Shown here piece by piece: positions 13,613-18,102 of a DNA stretch of 20,304 bases. The notes below the pieces were generated by a model. That model searched no databases and was not told the origin of the DNA. It worked only from the letters and a program-made list of their open reading frames with translations. The stretch spans positions 1-20,304 of the IMG/VR virus record IMGVR_UViG_3300042006_000069; one strand, 5' to 3'. This DNA comes from a virus. Position 1 is the first letter of the stretch. Each line of letters starts with the position of its first letter. The position numbers and the translations under genes were made by a program.

Positions 13613-15688
13613 ATGGCTATTGAAACAACACTCACAGTCACAGGCACAGAGTACGTCACCGTTGCTAAGTCAGCAATCTGGTTCGTTGACACTGAAGAGG
13701 CCGCAGAAGCAGTCGAAACAGCAAGTGCTTGCGCTGTGCTGGTCAAGCTGACAGATGGTACCAAGACTTACGAAGTCTACGACAAGTGGACCAAGACCAA
13801 GGGTACCGGAGATCTCAACACTGTACCGCTCAAGAAGAAGGACAGCCACGGCGTAACCGTCTCTGCTCCTAAAGTATACATCGCTTTCTCCCCGTTCACA
13901 ATGGGCAAGGACAAGGGTGGAGCGTTCGTCAAGGAACTTACCTCTGACCTGAAGGCACTCGGCTCCTTCGTTGAAGTAATCACCCTGCCTGCCGGTACCA
14001 CACTGGATGAGATCGCTGCCGCTGGTGGACAGGTCTACACCAACGATTACTTGGTGGAACGCGTAGAAGCCGCCATCAAGAAGGCTGAGAAGGCTAAGCC
14101 TGCTGCTGTCACCATTCAGGAGACACCTGCTGACATCATGTACGACATTGCCTACGCAGACTTCTTCTTCAACCAGTCTGACAAGGGTGAGCCGTTCATC
14201 ACATCCAAGAGTGGCCCGTCACACATTGCCATCCCGTTCTCGGAACTCGGATTCTACCTGCTCCGCGAATACAAGGACCGCCTCAAGCAGGTTGCGGCAC
14301 CAAAGGAACTGAAGGCAGCACTGGCTACCATCGAAGCCGACTGCGCCAAAGCAGGTAAGGCCATCCTCGGACTCCGCACGGTAACCTCTCCCTCCACCGG
14401 TAGCGTCTGGATTGACCTCGGACGCGCAGATGGACAGGTAGTACGCCTCACCGAAGACAACTGGGAACTGCACGATACCCCGGACTGGGATGTCTTCTTC
14501 AAGCGTACCAGCGTTATCAAGGAATTGCCAATCCCGACCGCGTGCGCTGTGACAGACACCTTCGGAAGGCTTCAGGGTATCCGCCGCTTCGCCAACATCC
14601 CGGACGCTCAGTGGCCTCTGGTTGTGGGCTGGATGGTAACCCACATGATCCCGGATGAGGATCACCTGACACCGCTCGTCTTCTTCCTAGGCGGTTCCCA
14701 GTCAGGTAAGACCACCATCTCCGTTCTGACCCGCTACATCACCGAAGGAATCCTTGATAAGGGTACCGACTCCGGTGCACGTGAAGGCGATCTTCAGCTT
14801 ACCATGAGCAAGGAACGCATCAAAACCCTGAACAACATCTCATCCATCTCCCCGGAGATGTCCGACCTCCTGTGCCAAGTATACGAAGGCTACAAGATCA
14901 CCGGTCGTAAGATGTACACACAGGACGAAGAGGCCACACTGGAGATCAACTGCTCGGTGATTGCCAATGGTGTCACTGTTGGTGGTATGAAGCCTGACCT
15001 CAAGACCCGCGTAATGGTTATGGACATCGACCCGAAGCACGGTGGAACCCCATGGCTCGGTGCGGAGAAGGAGCAGTCCAAGACCATCAACGATGAGATG
15101 AAGCGTGTACACGCAGACGCTCTTGGTGCGCTGCTGACTCTGGCGGTTGTGTCCCTGAAGCACCACGGAACATTCTACGAGTCTGTACGTGATGACATCT
15201 TCCGTCTGAAGGGCTTCGCAACGGTTCTTCGCACACTGGATCTGGTGTGGCAGCTTGAAGGACAGACCGTCAACGAATACAAGAAGCTCATGGATATCAT
15301 GTCTGAGGAAGCAATCGAAGACCCGATGTTCGAATGCATCCGTCGCCTTGCCATCACAGGCGATAACTACAACGCAGAGGCTAAGGTCTGGGAGCTTGAG
15401 ATCGACCTGATGACTCTCAAGAACAAGCTGAACGAGACCGGTTGGAAGACCATGATGGATTCGGTAGTCAGTGGTTCGAAGTCTTCGGGCTTCACATCCA
15501 CCAAGGCAGTGAGTGACGCGATCACCCGCAAGTCTACTGACTGGAAGCGTCTGGGAGTCACATACGAGAACGCAGGACGTAAGCGTGCAGCGGGATCAGG
15601 CAACAAGCAGACCTATTTCAAGTTCACTTTCAAGCACGATGTAGAGACATCATGGAGCCAGATGCCGGACACGTCAATCTCGCTCTAA
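13613..15688 (+). CDS. P-loop ATPase, probable replication primase/helicase-type protein
   Basis: A 691-residue protein with AAGGTAG five bases before its ATG. Residues 1-345 have no recognised domain: an N-terminal Ala/Glu-rich part, then a central alpha/beta region (PADIMYDIAYADFFFNQSDKGEPFI, GLRTVTSPSTGSVWIDLGRADGQVVRL, DWDVFFKRTSVIKELPIP). The C-terminal part is a P-loop ATPase: Walker A GGSQSGKT at 360-367 (Lys366), then IKTLNNISSISPEMSDLLCQVYEG (403-426), KMYTQDEEATLEINCSVIANGV and TRVMVMDID. These match, from memory, the bacterial and phage ATPases related to D5/P4-like helicases (segments such as LDNxS, LSDxLCR, LYTDDEE and RPVILNGI). Here the expected Walker B Asp is Asn407. The adjoining putative origin supports a replication-initiation role (inference). 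Confidence 0.75.
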   Translation: MAIETTLTVTGTEYVTVAKSAIWFVDTEEAAEAVETASACAVLVKLTDGTKTYEVYDKWTKTKGTGDLNTVPLKKKDSHGVTVSAPKVYIAFSPFTMGKDKGGAFVKELTSDLKALGSFVEVITLPAGTTLDEIAAAGGQVYTNDYLVERVEAAIKKAEKAKPAAVTIQETPADIMYDIAYADFFFNQSDKGEPFITSKSGPSHIAIPFSELGFYLLREYKDRLKQVAAPKELKAALATIEADCAKAGKAILGLRTVTSPSTGSVWIDLGRADGQVVRLTEDNWELHDTPDWDVFFKRTSVIKELPIPTACAVTDTFGRLQGIRRFANIPDAQWPLVVGWMVTHMIPDEDHLTPLVFFLGGSQSGKTTISVLTRYITEGILDKGTDSGAREGDLQLTMSKERIKTLNNISSISPEMSDLLCQVYEGYKITGRKMYTQDEEATLEINCSVIANGVTVGGMKPDLKTRVMVMDIDPKHGGTPWLGAEKEQSKTINDEMKRVHADALGALLTLAVVSLKHHGTFYESVRDDIFRLKGFATVLRTLDLVWQLEGQTVNEYKKLMDIMSEEAIEDPMFECIRRLAITGDNYNAEAKVWELEIDLMTLKNKLNETGWKTMMDSVVSGSKSSGFTSTKAVSDAITRKSTDWKRLGVTYENAGRKRAAGSGNKQTYFKFTFKHDVETSWSQMPDTSISL

Positions 15689-15700
15689 TGACCAAAATAT

Positions 15701-15740
15701 GACAAAGTGGCCAACTTCTTCGGAGGTTGGTCACTTTGTC
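15701..15740. terminator. 18-bp hairpin with a C(UUCG)G tetraloop after the ATPase gene
   Basis: GACAAAGTGGCCAAC pairs with GTTGGTCACTTTGTC (15 bp, one G-T wobble), and the stem continues through T716/G725, T717/A724 and C718/G723 to a TTCG loop. It starts 13 bases after the ATPase stop. The exceptionally stable cUUCGg loop suggests a functional RNA structure or U-less terminator; no T run follows. Confidence 0.65.
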
Positions 15741-15790
15741 GTTGGCTCTTGGAGATGGAGGCGGACACGTGAACTGTCTTTTGGAGGATA

Positions 15791-15823
15791 CCTGACCCAT
15801 ACCTGACCACAACGTGACCACCC
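15791..15823 (+). repeat. Three tandem 11-bp iterons
   Basis: CCTGACCCATA, CCTGACCACAA and CGTGACCACCC follow directly on each other (starts at 15791, 15802 and 15813). One helical turn per unit puts all copies on the same face of the DNA, as expected for cooperative protein binding. Confidence 0.65.
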
Positions 15824-16022
15824 AAAAACCCCTAGAACTCAAGGATCTAACTACCTTTGGTCACATGGTCACTTCTATTTCTAAAAAAAGTATAGAGGGG
15901 AAAAATATTTATTAGCGTTTAGGGTAAAAAAAATATTTTTCTGTATAGGAAAGGTCTTTGGGAAAACTACGTGACCAAGTGCCCACCATCGTTCGGAAGG
16001 GCTGATCCACCTGTCTGATCCG

Positions 16023-16033
16023 TATGGTATACT
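16023..16033 (+). promoter_or_regulatory. Extended -10 promoter (TATGGTATACT) for the 16066-17870 operon
   Basis: The 11 bases are identical to the promoter at 11392-11402. AGTCAACAA also follows both promoters at similar distances (16036 and 11416). The expected start is about 16040, ahead of a GAAGGA ribosome-binding site and the ATG at 16066. Confidence 0.65.
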
Positions 16034-16065
16034 TGAGTCAACAACCTCCACAGAAGGAAGACCCA

Positions 16066-16155
16066 ATGTCCACCGATAAGTTTGCCGATCAAGTTGAACA
16101 TCTCACTTGGCTCACGTCCCTGTCCGATCCCTACTCCGCAAGGAAGACCGACTAA
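16066..16155 (+). CDS. 29-residue microprotein coupled to the GIY-YIG gene
   Basis: ATG at 16066 begins 30 codons (29 residues plus stop). GAAGGAAG lies six bases upstream, and the promoter at 16023-16033 would make this the first gene on the transcript. The stop overlaps the next ATG by one base (TAATG at 16153-16157). The product is MSTDKFADQVEH then LTWLTSLSDPYSARKTD: acidic helix, Leu/Trp patch, basic tail, with no membrane segment. It may be a true microprotein or mainly a translation-coupling leader. Coding evidence is context only; nothing is known of its function. Confidence 0.55.
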   Translation: MSTDKFADQVEHLTWLTSLSDPYSARKTD

Positions 16156-16804: not shown

Positions 16805-17332
16805 ATGTCCACTACAGATAACGAACTAACCCTCAAAGATGCCCAAACGATTGTGGCCGCACTGGATACCCCGGATGTGTGGCGCGAGTACGGTAAGCGT
16901 ACTTCACAGGAACGCCTTGCTCTTGGTGTGGTGATCCTGAACCGAGTCATGCGTGGGCAAAGTCTCCGTACGATTGAGGCCGAGCTTGGTATTCCTCGTG
17001 CCACTGTAGCTCGTTACCGAGATCAGGCTCTCAACTCCGTAGCTATGCCAAACGTGGACAACGCACGCAAGGAAGAGCTTGACCGCCTAGAGGTTCTGAT
17101 GGAGGCTGTGTGGCCGTCTGCGGCAACAGGAGACGAAAAGGCTATAGCTTCCTACATGAAGATTTCTGAGCGCCGTGCGAAGCTTCTGGGGCTTGACCGT
17201 CCTACTGAGGTATCCGCTACTGTGGTGGAAATCACTGCGGCAGAACGTGAGCTACAGGAAATGTTGGCAGCAGCCGAGCGAGATTCCCTGATGGCGCAAG
17301 CTAAGGCACTTGAAAGCCATGTCGAAGCGTAG
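16805..17332 (+). CDS. Terminase small subunit-like HTH protein
   Basis: A 175-residue protein with AAGGAG about ten bases before the ATG. Residues 52-74 (QSLRTIEAELGIPRATVARYRDQ) form a helix-turn-helix. The C-terminal part contains YMKISERRAKLLGLDRP, a segment I know mainly from phage terminase small subunits and packaging-associated HTH proteins, followed by a Glu/Ala-rich helical tail that may oligomerise. Small subunits recognise the packaging site on DNA and hand it to the large subunit, which lies 1.4 kb downstream here. The gene overlaps the next by 14 bases. The HTH is clear; the terminase assignment depends on the motif and location. Confidence 0.78.
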   Translation: MSTTDNELTLKDAQTIVAALDTPDVWREYGKRTSQERLALGVVILNRVMRGQSLRTIEAELGIPRATVARYRDQALNSVAMPNVDNARKEELDRLEVLMEAVWPSAATGDEKAIASYMKISERRAKLLGLDRPTEVSATVVEITAAERELQEMLAAAERDSLMAQAKALESHVEA

Positions 17333-17870
17333 GAAGATAGCACTACTCTGCTCTATCGTGATCGCTCTCGCGATTATCCTGATGACCGCCAAGGCCATTA
17401 CGGATAACGCACTTCACAACATATCCGAGCCGACTATCACAGCATCACCAGATGTAACGTTGAAGCAGCCGGAACCAGAGATCAGGGCCGCATCGGAAGC
17501 CAAGCTATCCGAACCGGAGCCTGAGATCACAACGGAACCTGCTCCACCGACTGCTCCTACTAATATACCGTATGACGCTTTCGTGTCAACCCCTCAGTAC
17601 GTGGGTCCGATGCCTCCGTACACAGGCCCTCAGTACCCTCTGAGAAGCCCACAACAGGCCCTCTCGCAGCCTCTAGTACCCTCTCCGGTCCAACCACTGC
17701 CTCCCGCAGTAACGGGGCCGGTAGAGGGGCTTCTAGAGCCTCTGAAGCCAATCACTGATAATCTCCCAATCCTTCCTGATCTCGTGGAACTTGTACCACT
17801 ACCAGCGGAGGATAACGTTCCTGCCCTACCAATCCCTAATGAAGTTGAGATCGATGTCATACTCCCTTAA
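17319..17870 (+). CDS. Proline-rich membrane-anchored protein, unknown function
   Basis: The ATG at 17319 lies inside the previous gene (14-base overlap); a TTG at 17310 is also possible. The 183-residue product has a basic start (SKRRK), one hydrophobic helix (about 6-26, IALLCSIVIALAIILMTAKA) and then an extracytoplasmic tail very rich in Pro, Glu, Thr and Val, with EPEI-type repeats (LKQPEPEIRA, LSEPEPEITTEPAPP) and PPY / PLP runs. It is probably a signal anchor with a long extended outer part that could cross the cell wall. Spanin-like, superinfection-exclusion or surface roles are possible; none is supported directly. Its presence between the two terminase genes is unusual. Confidence 0.7.
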   Translation: MSKRRKIALLCSIVIALAIILMTAKAITDNALHNISEPTITASPDVTLKQPEPEIRAASEAKLSEPEPEITTEPAPPTAPTNIPYDAFVSTPQYVGPMPPYTGPQYPLRSPQQALSQPLVPSPVQPLPPAVTGPVEGLLEPLKPITDNLPILPDLVELVPLPAEDNVPALPIPNEVEIDVILP

Positions 17871-18102
17871 TCAATATACCGTTATCGAATACACTGTCAA
17901 CGACGTACCACTACAGGACTTCGTGAAGGCAGGTCCGGACTCTGATTCCGTGATCGTATCAAAGATCGATGACATCTTCAAGCTGACTGGCGTGACGAAG
18001 TTCAGGCTCTATGATGAATTCCGATATGAGCATGTGTTCGTGGATACCACACTGCCTGTTGAGGAACCTGTGGTGGAGGAAGAGCCGGTCGTAGAGGGAT
18101 AG
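17854..18102 (+). CDS. Small acidic protein (82 aa), unknown
   Basis: ATG at 17854 overlaps the previous gene by 17 bases and has weak upstream purines (TTGAGA). An upstream in-frame ATG at 17839 lacks a ribosome-binding site. The 82-residue product has an alpha/beta core (YTVIEYTVNDVPLQDFVKAG, SVIVSKIDDIFKLTGVTKFRLYDEF) and a strongly acidic, valine-rich tail (PVEEPVVEEEPVV). There is no signal or membrane segment. It precedes the promoter of the HNH gene. Function unknown. Confidence 0.65.
   Translation: MSYSLNQYTVIEYTVNDVPLQDFVKAGPDSDSVIVSKIDDIFKLTGVTKFRLYDEFRYEHVFVDTTLPVEEPVVEEEPVVEG

Follow-up and report, generated by a model that had tools for sequence, protein, structure and literature searches.

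We found that positions 15689–16065 of the actinophage contig IMGVR_UViG_3300042006_000069, and essentially 15788–15977, very probably constitute the iteron-type replication origin of this phage, fired by the D5-like ATPase encoded upstream. The window analyzed here is the whole stretch of DNA, a linear 20,304-base IMG/VR virus contig that is probably a fragment, with its left end inside a tape-measure-like gene and its right end behind the large terminase gene (TerL). The main ORFs are on the plus strand, and the origin candidate lies between the 691-aa ATPase gene (13613–15688) and a downstream block comprising a 29-aa ORF, a NUMOD3 endonuclease-like gene, a TerS-like HTH gene (16805–17332), and TerL, the relatives of which belong to actinophages and two Streptomyces phage satellites. 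A DNA-level search of the origin region against phage records and an Rfam search of the region gave no match. Directly right of the origin region, the 29-aa ORF (16066–16155) has a good ribosome-binding site and a stop codon that overlaps the next start (TAATG), and may be a leader peptide or a small early gene. Two near-consensus promoter matches (TTGACA-16-TATATT, 11/12) lie on the minus strand, opposite to the main genes, at 17562–17589 and 17873–17900, and have ACGGTATATT in common.

The first-pass annotation had placed eight copies of TGACCA, in both orientations, within 290 non-coding bases, and all eight were found where it put them: seven exact copies (plus strand: 15689, 15804, 15815, and 15972; minus strand: 15728, 15858, and 15866) and one TGACCC (15793, plus strand). 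Its estimate that well under one copy is expected by chance agrees with shuffles of the 290-bp segment, which contained 0.2 copies of TGACCA on average and three at maximum. When all hexamers were scanned, TGACCA was the most clustered in the whole contig, and a cluster of seven for any hexamer was reached in 1 of 150 locally shuffled contigs. A chance origin of the repeats was rejected by these hexamer-clustering and shuffle tests. The genome scan for other TGACCA clusters found 15 scattered copies outside the region, with no more than two per 300 bp, and the heptamer GTGACCA occurs five times in the region and twice elsewhere in the contig. Three copies are in tandem (15788–15820, plus strand; TGACCC at 15793, TGACCA at 15804 and 15815) with the exact 11-bp period noticed earlier, two GTGACCA iterons 8 bp apart (15858–15871, minus strand) abut an AT-rich core, and another GTGACCA iteron (15971–15977, plus strand) lies on the far side of this core. 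The remaining two are located in the arms of a hairpin, i.e., a TGACCA copy in the outer arm (15689–15694, plus strand) and a GTGACCA copy in the stem (15728–15733, minus strand), and probably belong to a terminator. Six of the eight copies therefore stand as an array (the tandem three, the 8-bp-spaced pair, and the one beyond the core), and the array remains significant when the hairpin is left out (five exact copies, reached in 0 of 300 shuffles). The non-coding DNA thus contains more clustered short repeats than chance would give, which is one of the marks of an iteron origin.

The AT-rich stretch described between the repeats (15871–15950) has an A+T content of 76%, compared to 49% for the contig. 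Based on thermodynamic stability, 15872–15951 is the weakest 80-bp stretch in the 20.3-kb contig (z 4.7); it is also the most AT-rich one and forms the AT-rich core and the proposed DNA unwinding element (no strand assigned); an easily melted AT-rich segment beside the repeats, as in iteron origins, was thus found. A AAATATTT dyad (inverted repeat I6) is located within the core at 15900–15941. The suggested GC-skew check showed no turning point at the region, but the contig is a fragment; the skew is uninformative.

The hairpin behind the ATPase gene (15683–15754, plus strand; fold z −8.1) has a stem length of 18–20 bp, an inner stem at 15701–15740, and a UUCG loop. The inner stem departs from perfect pairing at two positions, both G.U. 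Because these are the only departures and the loop is UUCG, the hairpin is probably the RNA terminator of the ATPase gene. Hairpins occur at the equivalent place in four other loci (L010, L011, L016, and L026). Alternatively, the large hairpin itself could be the origin, with the TGACCA repeats as accessory elements, as in plasmid pRN1, whose replication depends on a stem-loop located past its rep gene (PMC4234260). The exceptional stability of the hairpin and its position immediately behind the ATPase gene would suit such a role. We consider this improbable, however, given that the two G.U departures and the UUCG loop favor an RNA terminator, that the hairpins of the relatives accompany arrays rather than replace them, and that pRN1 has no iterons.

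The ATPase (13613–15688, plus strand) has no Pfam or PHROG match of its own. Using tblastn, it was found to be related to the primase/helicase of phage Zeta1847 and to the ATPases that serve replication in Streptomyces plasmids, pFP11 among them (E 3e-24); it is a distant relative of these and of ATPases of integrative elements. Identity to the plasmid ATPases is only ~24%, and the conserved positions of the alignment span residues ~190–650. The AlphaFold model (mean pLDDT 64.6) contains a helicase core and a C-terminal helix-helix-helix-hairpin (residues ~599–674, pLDDT only about 55–75) that is predicted to be a winged helix. Foldseek comparisons of this model (pLDDT 64.6) retrieved African swine fever virus PrimPol, poxvirus D5/E5, the SaPI5 primase-helicase, and NrS-1, with E values of 1e-7 to 1e-5 and a probability of 1.00 for the D5/PrimPol/SaPI5-type matches; the fold of the model is thus like that of D5, PrimPol, or SaPI5 helicases. 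The earlier call of a P-loop ATPase of replication type was right, because the protein has relatives among plasmid ATPases and in Zeta1847, together with D5-type fold matches. The gene adjacent to the repeats is therefore a candidate initiator gene, encoding a D5/SF3-like helicase, in keeping with the layout of an iteron origin. By eye, the N-terminus of the ATPase (13613–14100) aligns with the Toprim domain of the Zeta1847 primase, over the second half of this domain; the acidic Toprim residues are absent and the model is of low confidence there, and this part is possibly a decayed primase domain.

To compare homologous loci, repeats were counted in the first 800 nt past the ATPase stop and in control stretches of the same locus, for four plasmids (L010–L013) and 83 more loci from profile scans. 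The count exceeded every same-locus control in 80 of these 87 loci, most of which come from one Streptomyces clade and are non-independent (82 ATPases form eight clusters at 80% identity). Iterons (GTGCGTCCCTG, TGTGACCCTGG, and GGTGACGCAGG), several with 11-bp spacing, are present in the non-coding DNA that follows the ATPase gene in pFP11 (L010), its relative L013, and plasmids L011 and L012, and the ATPase genes are preceded by a regulator gene and a Prim-Pol gene. In many Streptomyces integrative-element loci, TGACGCA iterons follow the end of the ATPase gene at a distance of ~170–400 nt. Among a separate set of 395 genomes from the class, further distant ATPase clades were found whose iterons in this position are different (CCGTCCC, CGTAGCC, CGTCCGC, and GCCTGCA). 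There was no detectable array behind the ATPase in distant clades L205, L208, L210, and L213–L217, nor behind the ATPase genes of phage Zeta1847 and contig L014, and in L202 and L207 the repeats precede the called ATPase stop. When clades were tallied at 70% identity, 6 of 12 were clearly positive and two more had repeats at the gene end. The comparison with relatives proposed in the first-pass annotation thus showed that the position of the array behind the ATPase gene is conserved; the repeat sequence itself is not, being lineage-specific.

Finer features of the region also recur. The window, L016, and L010 share the order of ATPase stop, hairpin, iterons in both directions, 8-bp-spaced pair, weak DNA, and further iterons, and pairs with 8-bp spacing were found in L016, L010, and L026. 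Weak DNA beside the repeats, a part of the origin layout first proposed, is usual in the relatives: in 9 of the 16 loci examined (L010, L011, L013, L016, L017, L036, L079, L039, and L084), the weakest 60 bp of the locus are found past the ATPase stop, next to the array. The genes behind the array vary among elements (ParA, an apparent excisionase, YozE, glycosyltransferase-like, and GIY/NUMOD3), whereas the ATPase in front is constant. This variation bears on an operator reading, in which a phage regulator would bind the TGACCA sites and thereby govern the rightward operon, whose promoter would lie near 16025–16033. An extended -10-like element (TGGTATACT; 16025–16033, plus strand), read from the sequence and not listed by the promoter scan, lies ~50 bp right of the last repeat and is possibly the promoter of the downstream operon, and the inverted TGACCA pairs are operator-like. 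Nevertheless, an operator has no need for the least stable DNA of the contig to lie between its sites, and together with the changing genes behind a constant ATPase this makes the operator reading quite unlikely.

The same loci speak to packaging. If the repeats were a packaging site, TerS (16805–17332) would bind them as cosB or pac and the contig would cross a genome end. The TerS-like HTH gene and TerL do follow the region, phage ends usually adjoin terminase genes, and the records of two phages with related TerL, OscarSo and Isperia, end just upstream of the terminase genes. However, plasmids and integrative elements, which lack terminases, have similar arrays following their homologous ATPase genes; the repeats are thus not restricted to terminase genes and accompany the ATPase, not the packaging functions. 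Arrays that occur without terminases, and with various genes behind them, argue against both a packaging site and an operator of the downstream operon, and we regard packaging as highly improbable. The origin reading of the first-pass annotation is instead supported by the presence of an array behind the same ATPase type in plasmids, integrative elements, and one phage contig.

This closest phage contig, IMGVR_UViG_3300037193_001914 (G001; L016/L101), resembles the window in having, in order, the ATPase, the hairpin, iterons beside the weakest DNA, the TerS-like HTH gene, and TerL (39% identity to the window TerL, E 1e-113). Its iterons are different (TGACAGG, 13 copies in 32 kb, all behind the ATPase gene), its ATPase shares only about 19–24% identity with that of the window, and, unlike the window, it has a Prim-Pol and is GC-rich. 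The array of G001 adjoins the ATPase gene and is ~1.9 kb from TerS, which also counts against packaging. Scans of viral contigs using the ATPase or TerL as single proteins found none, and alignments were needed; a TerL-alignment scan yielded 80 viral loci, with the ATPase on none of the sequence pieces examined.

Among known systems, the replication locus of plasmid pFP11 is reported to consist of rep and an iteron, and a protein named RepA to bind the iterons (PMC3583192). As in the window, a homologous ATPase gene in pFP11 is followed by non-coding iterons in both orientations with 11-bp tandem spacing, an 8-bp-spaced pair next to the least stable DNA of the locus, and more copies on the other side of it. 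The pFP11 locus differs in its iteron (GGACGCA), in ATPase identity (about 24–25%), in having a Prim-Pol gene in front, and in the position of the array, which begins ~550 nt past the stop codon, with a small gene in between. In SLP1, a Prim-Pol gene and a SCO4618-like gene lie in a region important for replication (PMC3218068). Prim-Pol/RepPP-type integrative elements of actinomycetes (SLP1-like module SCO4617–SCO4618) likewise have a replication ATPase gene followed by iterons, although they are integrative elements and not phages; judging from the arrangement of Prim-Pol and ATPase, these loci would be SCO4618-like. Like the pFP11/RepPP module, the window has a homologous ATPase gene that is followed by an iteron array. 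The Prim-Pol gene adjacent to the ATPase gene in these modules was not recognized in the window, where most small upstream ORFs have no Pfam match, and by its sequence the window appears to work like such a module minus this one gene.

More distant parallels are found among helicases of the same type. In SaPIs, an SF3/D5-type helicase initiator (Rep), which has a winged helix for origin binding, acts on repeats beside AT-rich DNA, and the SaPI5 primase-helicase was a structure match of the ATPase model. Phage P4 alpha likewise combines an SF3/D5-type initiator helicase with a winged-helix origin-binding domain and repeats beside AT-rich DNA; its winged helix binds the origin repeats, after which the protein unwinds and primes (PMC4234260). 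No sequence relationship of the window to P4 alpha or SaPI Rep was detected and, unlike the window ATPase, P4 alpha has a fused primase.

We favor the origin reading because it explains together the array, the weak core, the kinship of the ATPase, the recurrence of arrays behind homologous genes, and the reports on pFP11, P4, and SLP1. The missing Prim-Pol, the ~24% ATPase identity, the clades lacking an array, and the absence of a GC-skew turn count against it. According to the proposed mechanism, the ATPase (D5/SF3-type, of the Streptomyces plasmid/integrative-element group) would bind the (G)TGACCA iterons via its C-terminal winged helix and assemble as rings, which would melt the AT-rich core at 15872–15951. 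Host (or phage) primase and replisome proteins would then take over, and replication would start at this region.

Conserved non-coding DNA or repeat clusters were also observed in other phages and in satellites. A non-coding block (GGTTGTCAGGTTGTTAC ... ACAACAACCACAGCAACC) that surrounds AT-rich DNA close to the Prim-Pol helicase gene is conserved among the Microbacterium phages OscarSo, Isperia, and Wyvern (L003 32909–33432, L004 31999–32498, and L005 33492–33929) and is possibly their origin. The strongest repeat cluster in phage Zeta1847 (L002 38546–38738) comprises 12 copies of CGTCCGCC and immediately follows the serine integrase gene. In the satellites MulchRoom and MiniFlayer, there are clusters of short repeats (CACGACAG; GGACAGAC; GTTCGCA) at L006 11809–12169 and at L007 12248–12632 and 14796–15212, which may be origins or regulatory arrays.

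With respect to the wider group, we lean towards the view that actinobacterial plasmids, integrative elements, and phages have in common one self-contained cassette, in which a D5-type ATPase gene is directly followed by an iteron array of its own and a melting element, that the iterons change with the ATPase by lineage, and that the cassette was taken up by phages of the present terminase lineage as an exchangeable unit. The region provides a concrete predicted origin for a phage group that had no described one. It also suggests a rule for locating putative origins in many plasmids, integrative elements, and phages of actinobacteria, namely that they directly follow the D5-like ATPase gene; for Prim-Pol-type integrative elements, no description of the origin was found in the literature searched. 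Given lineage-specific iterons and divergent ATPases, the specificity between initiator and iteron is directly testable.
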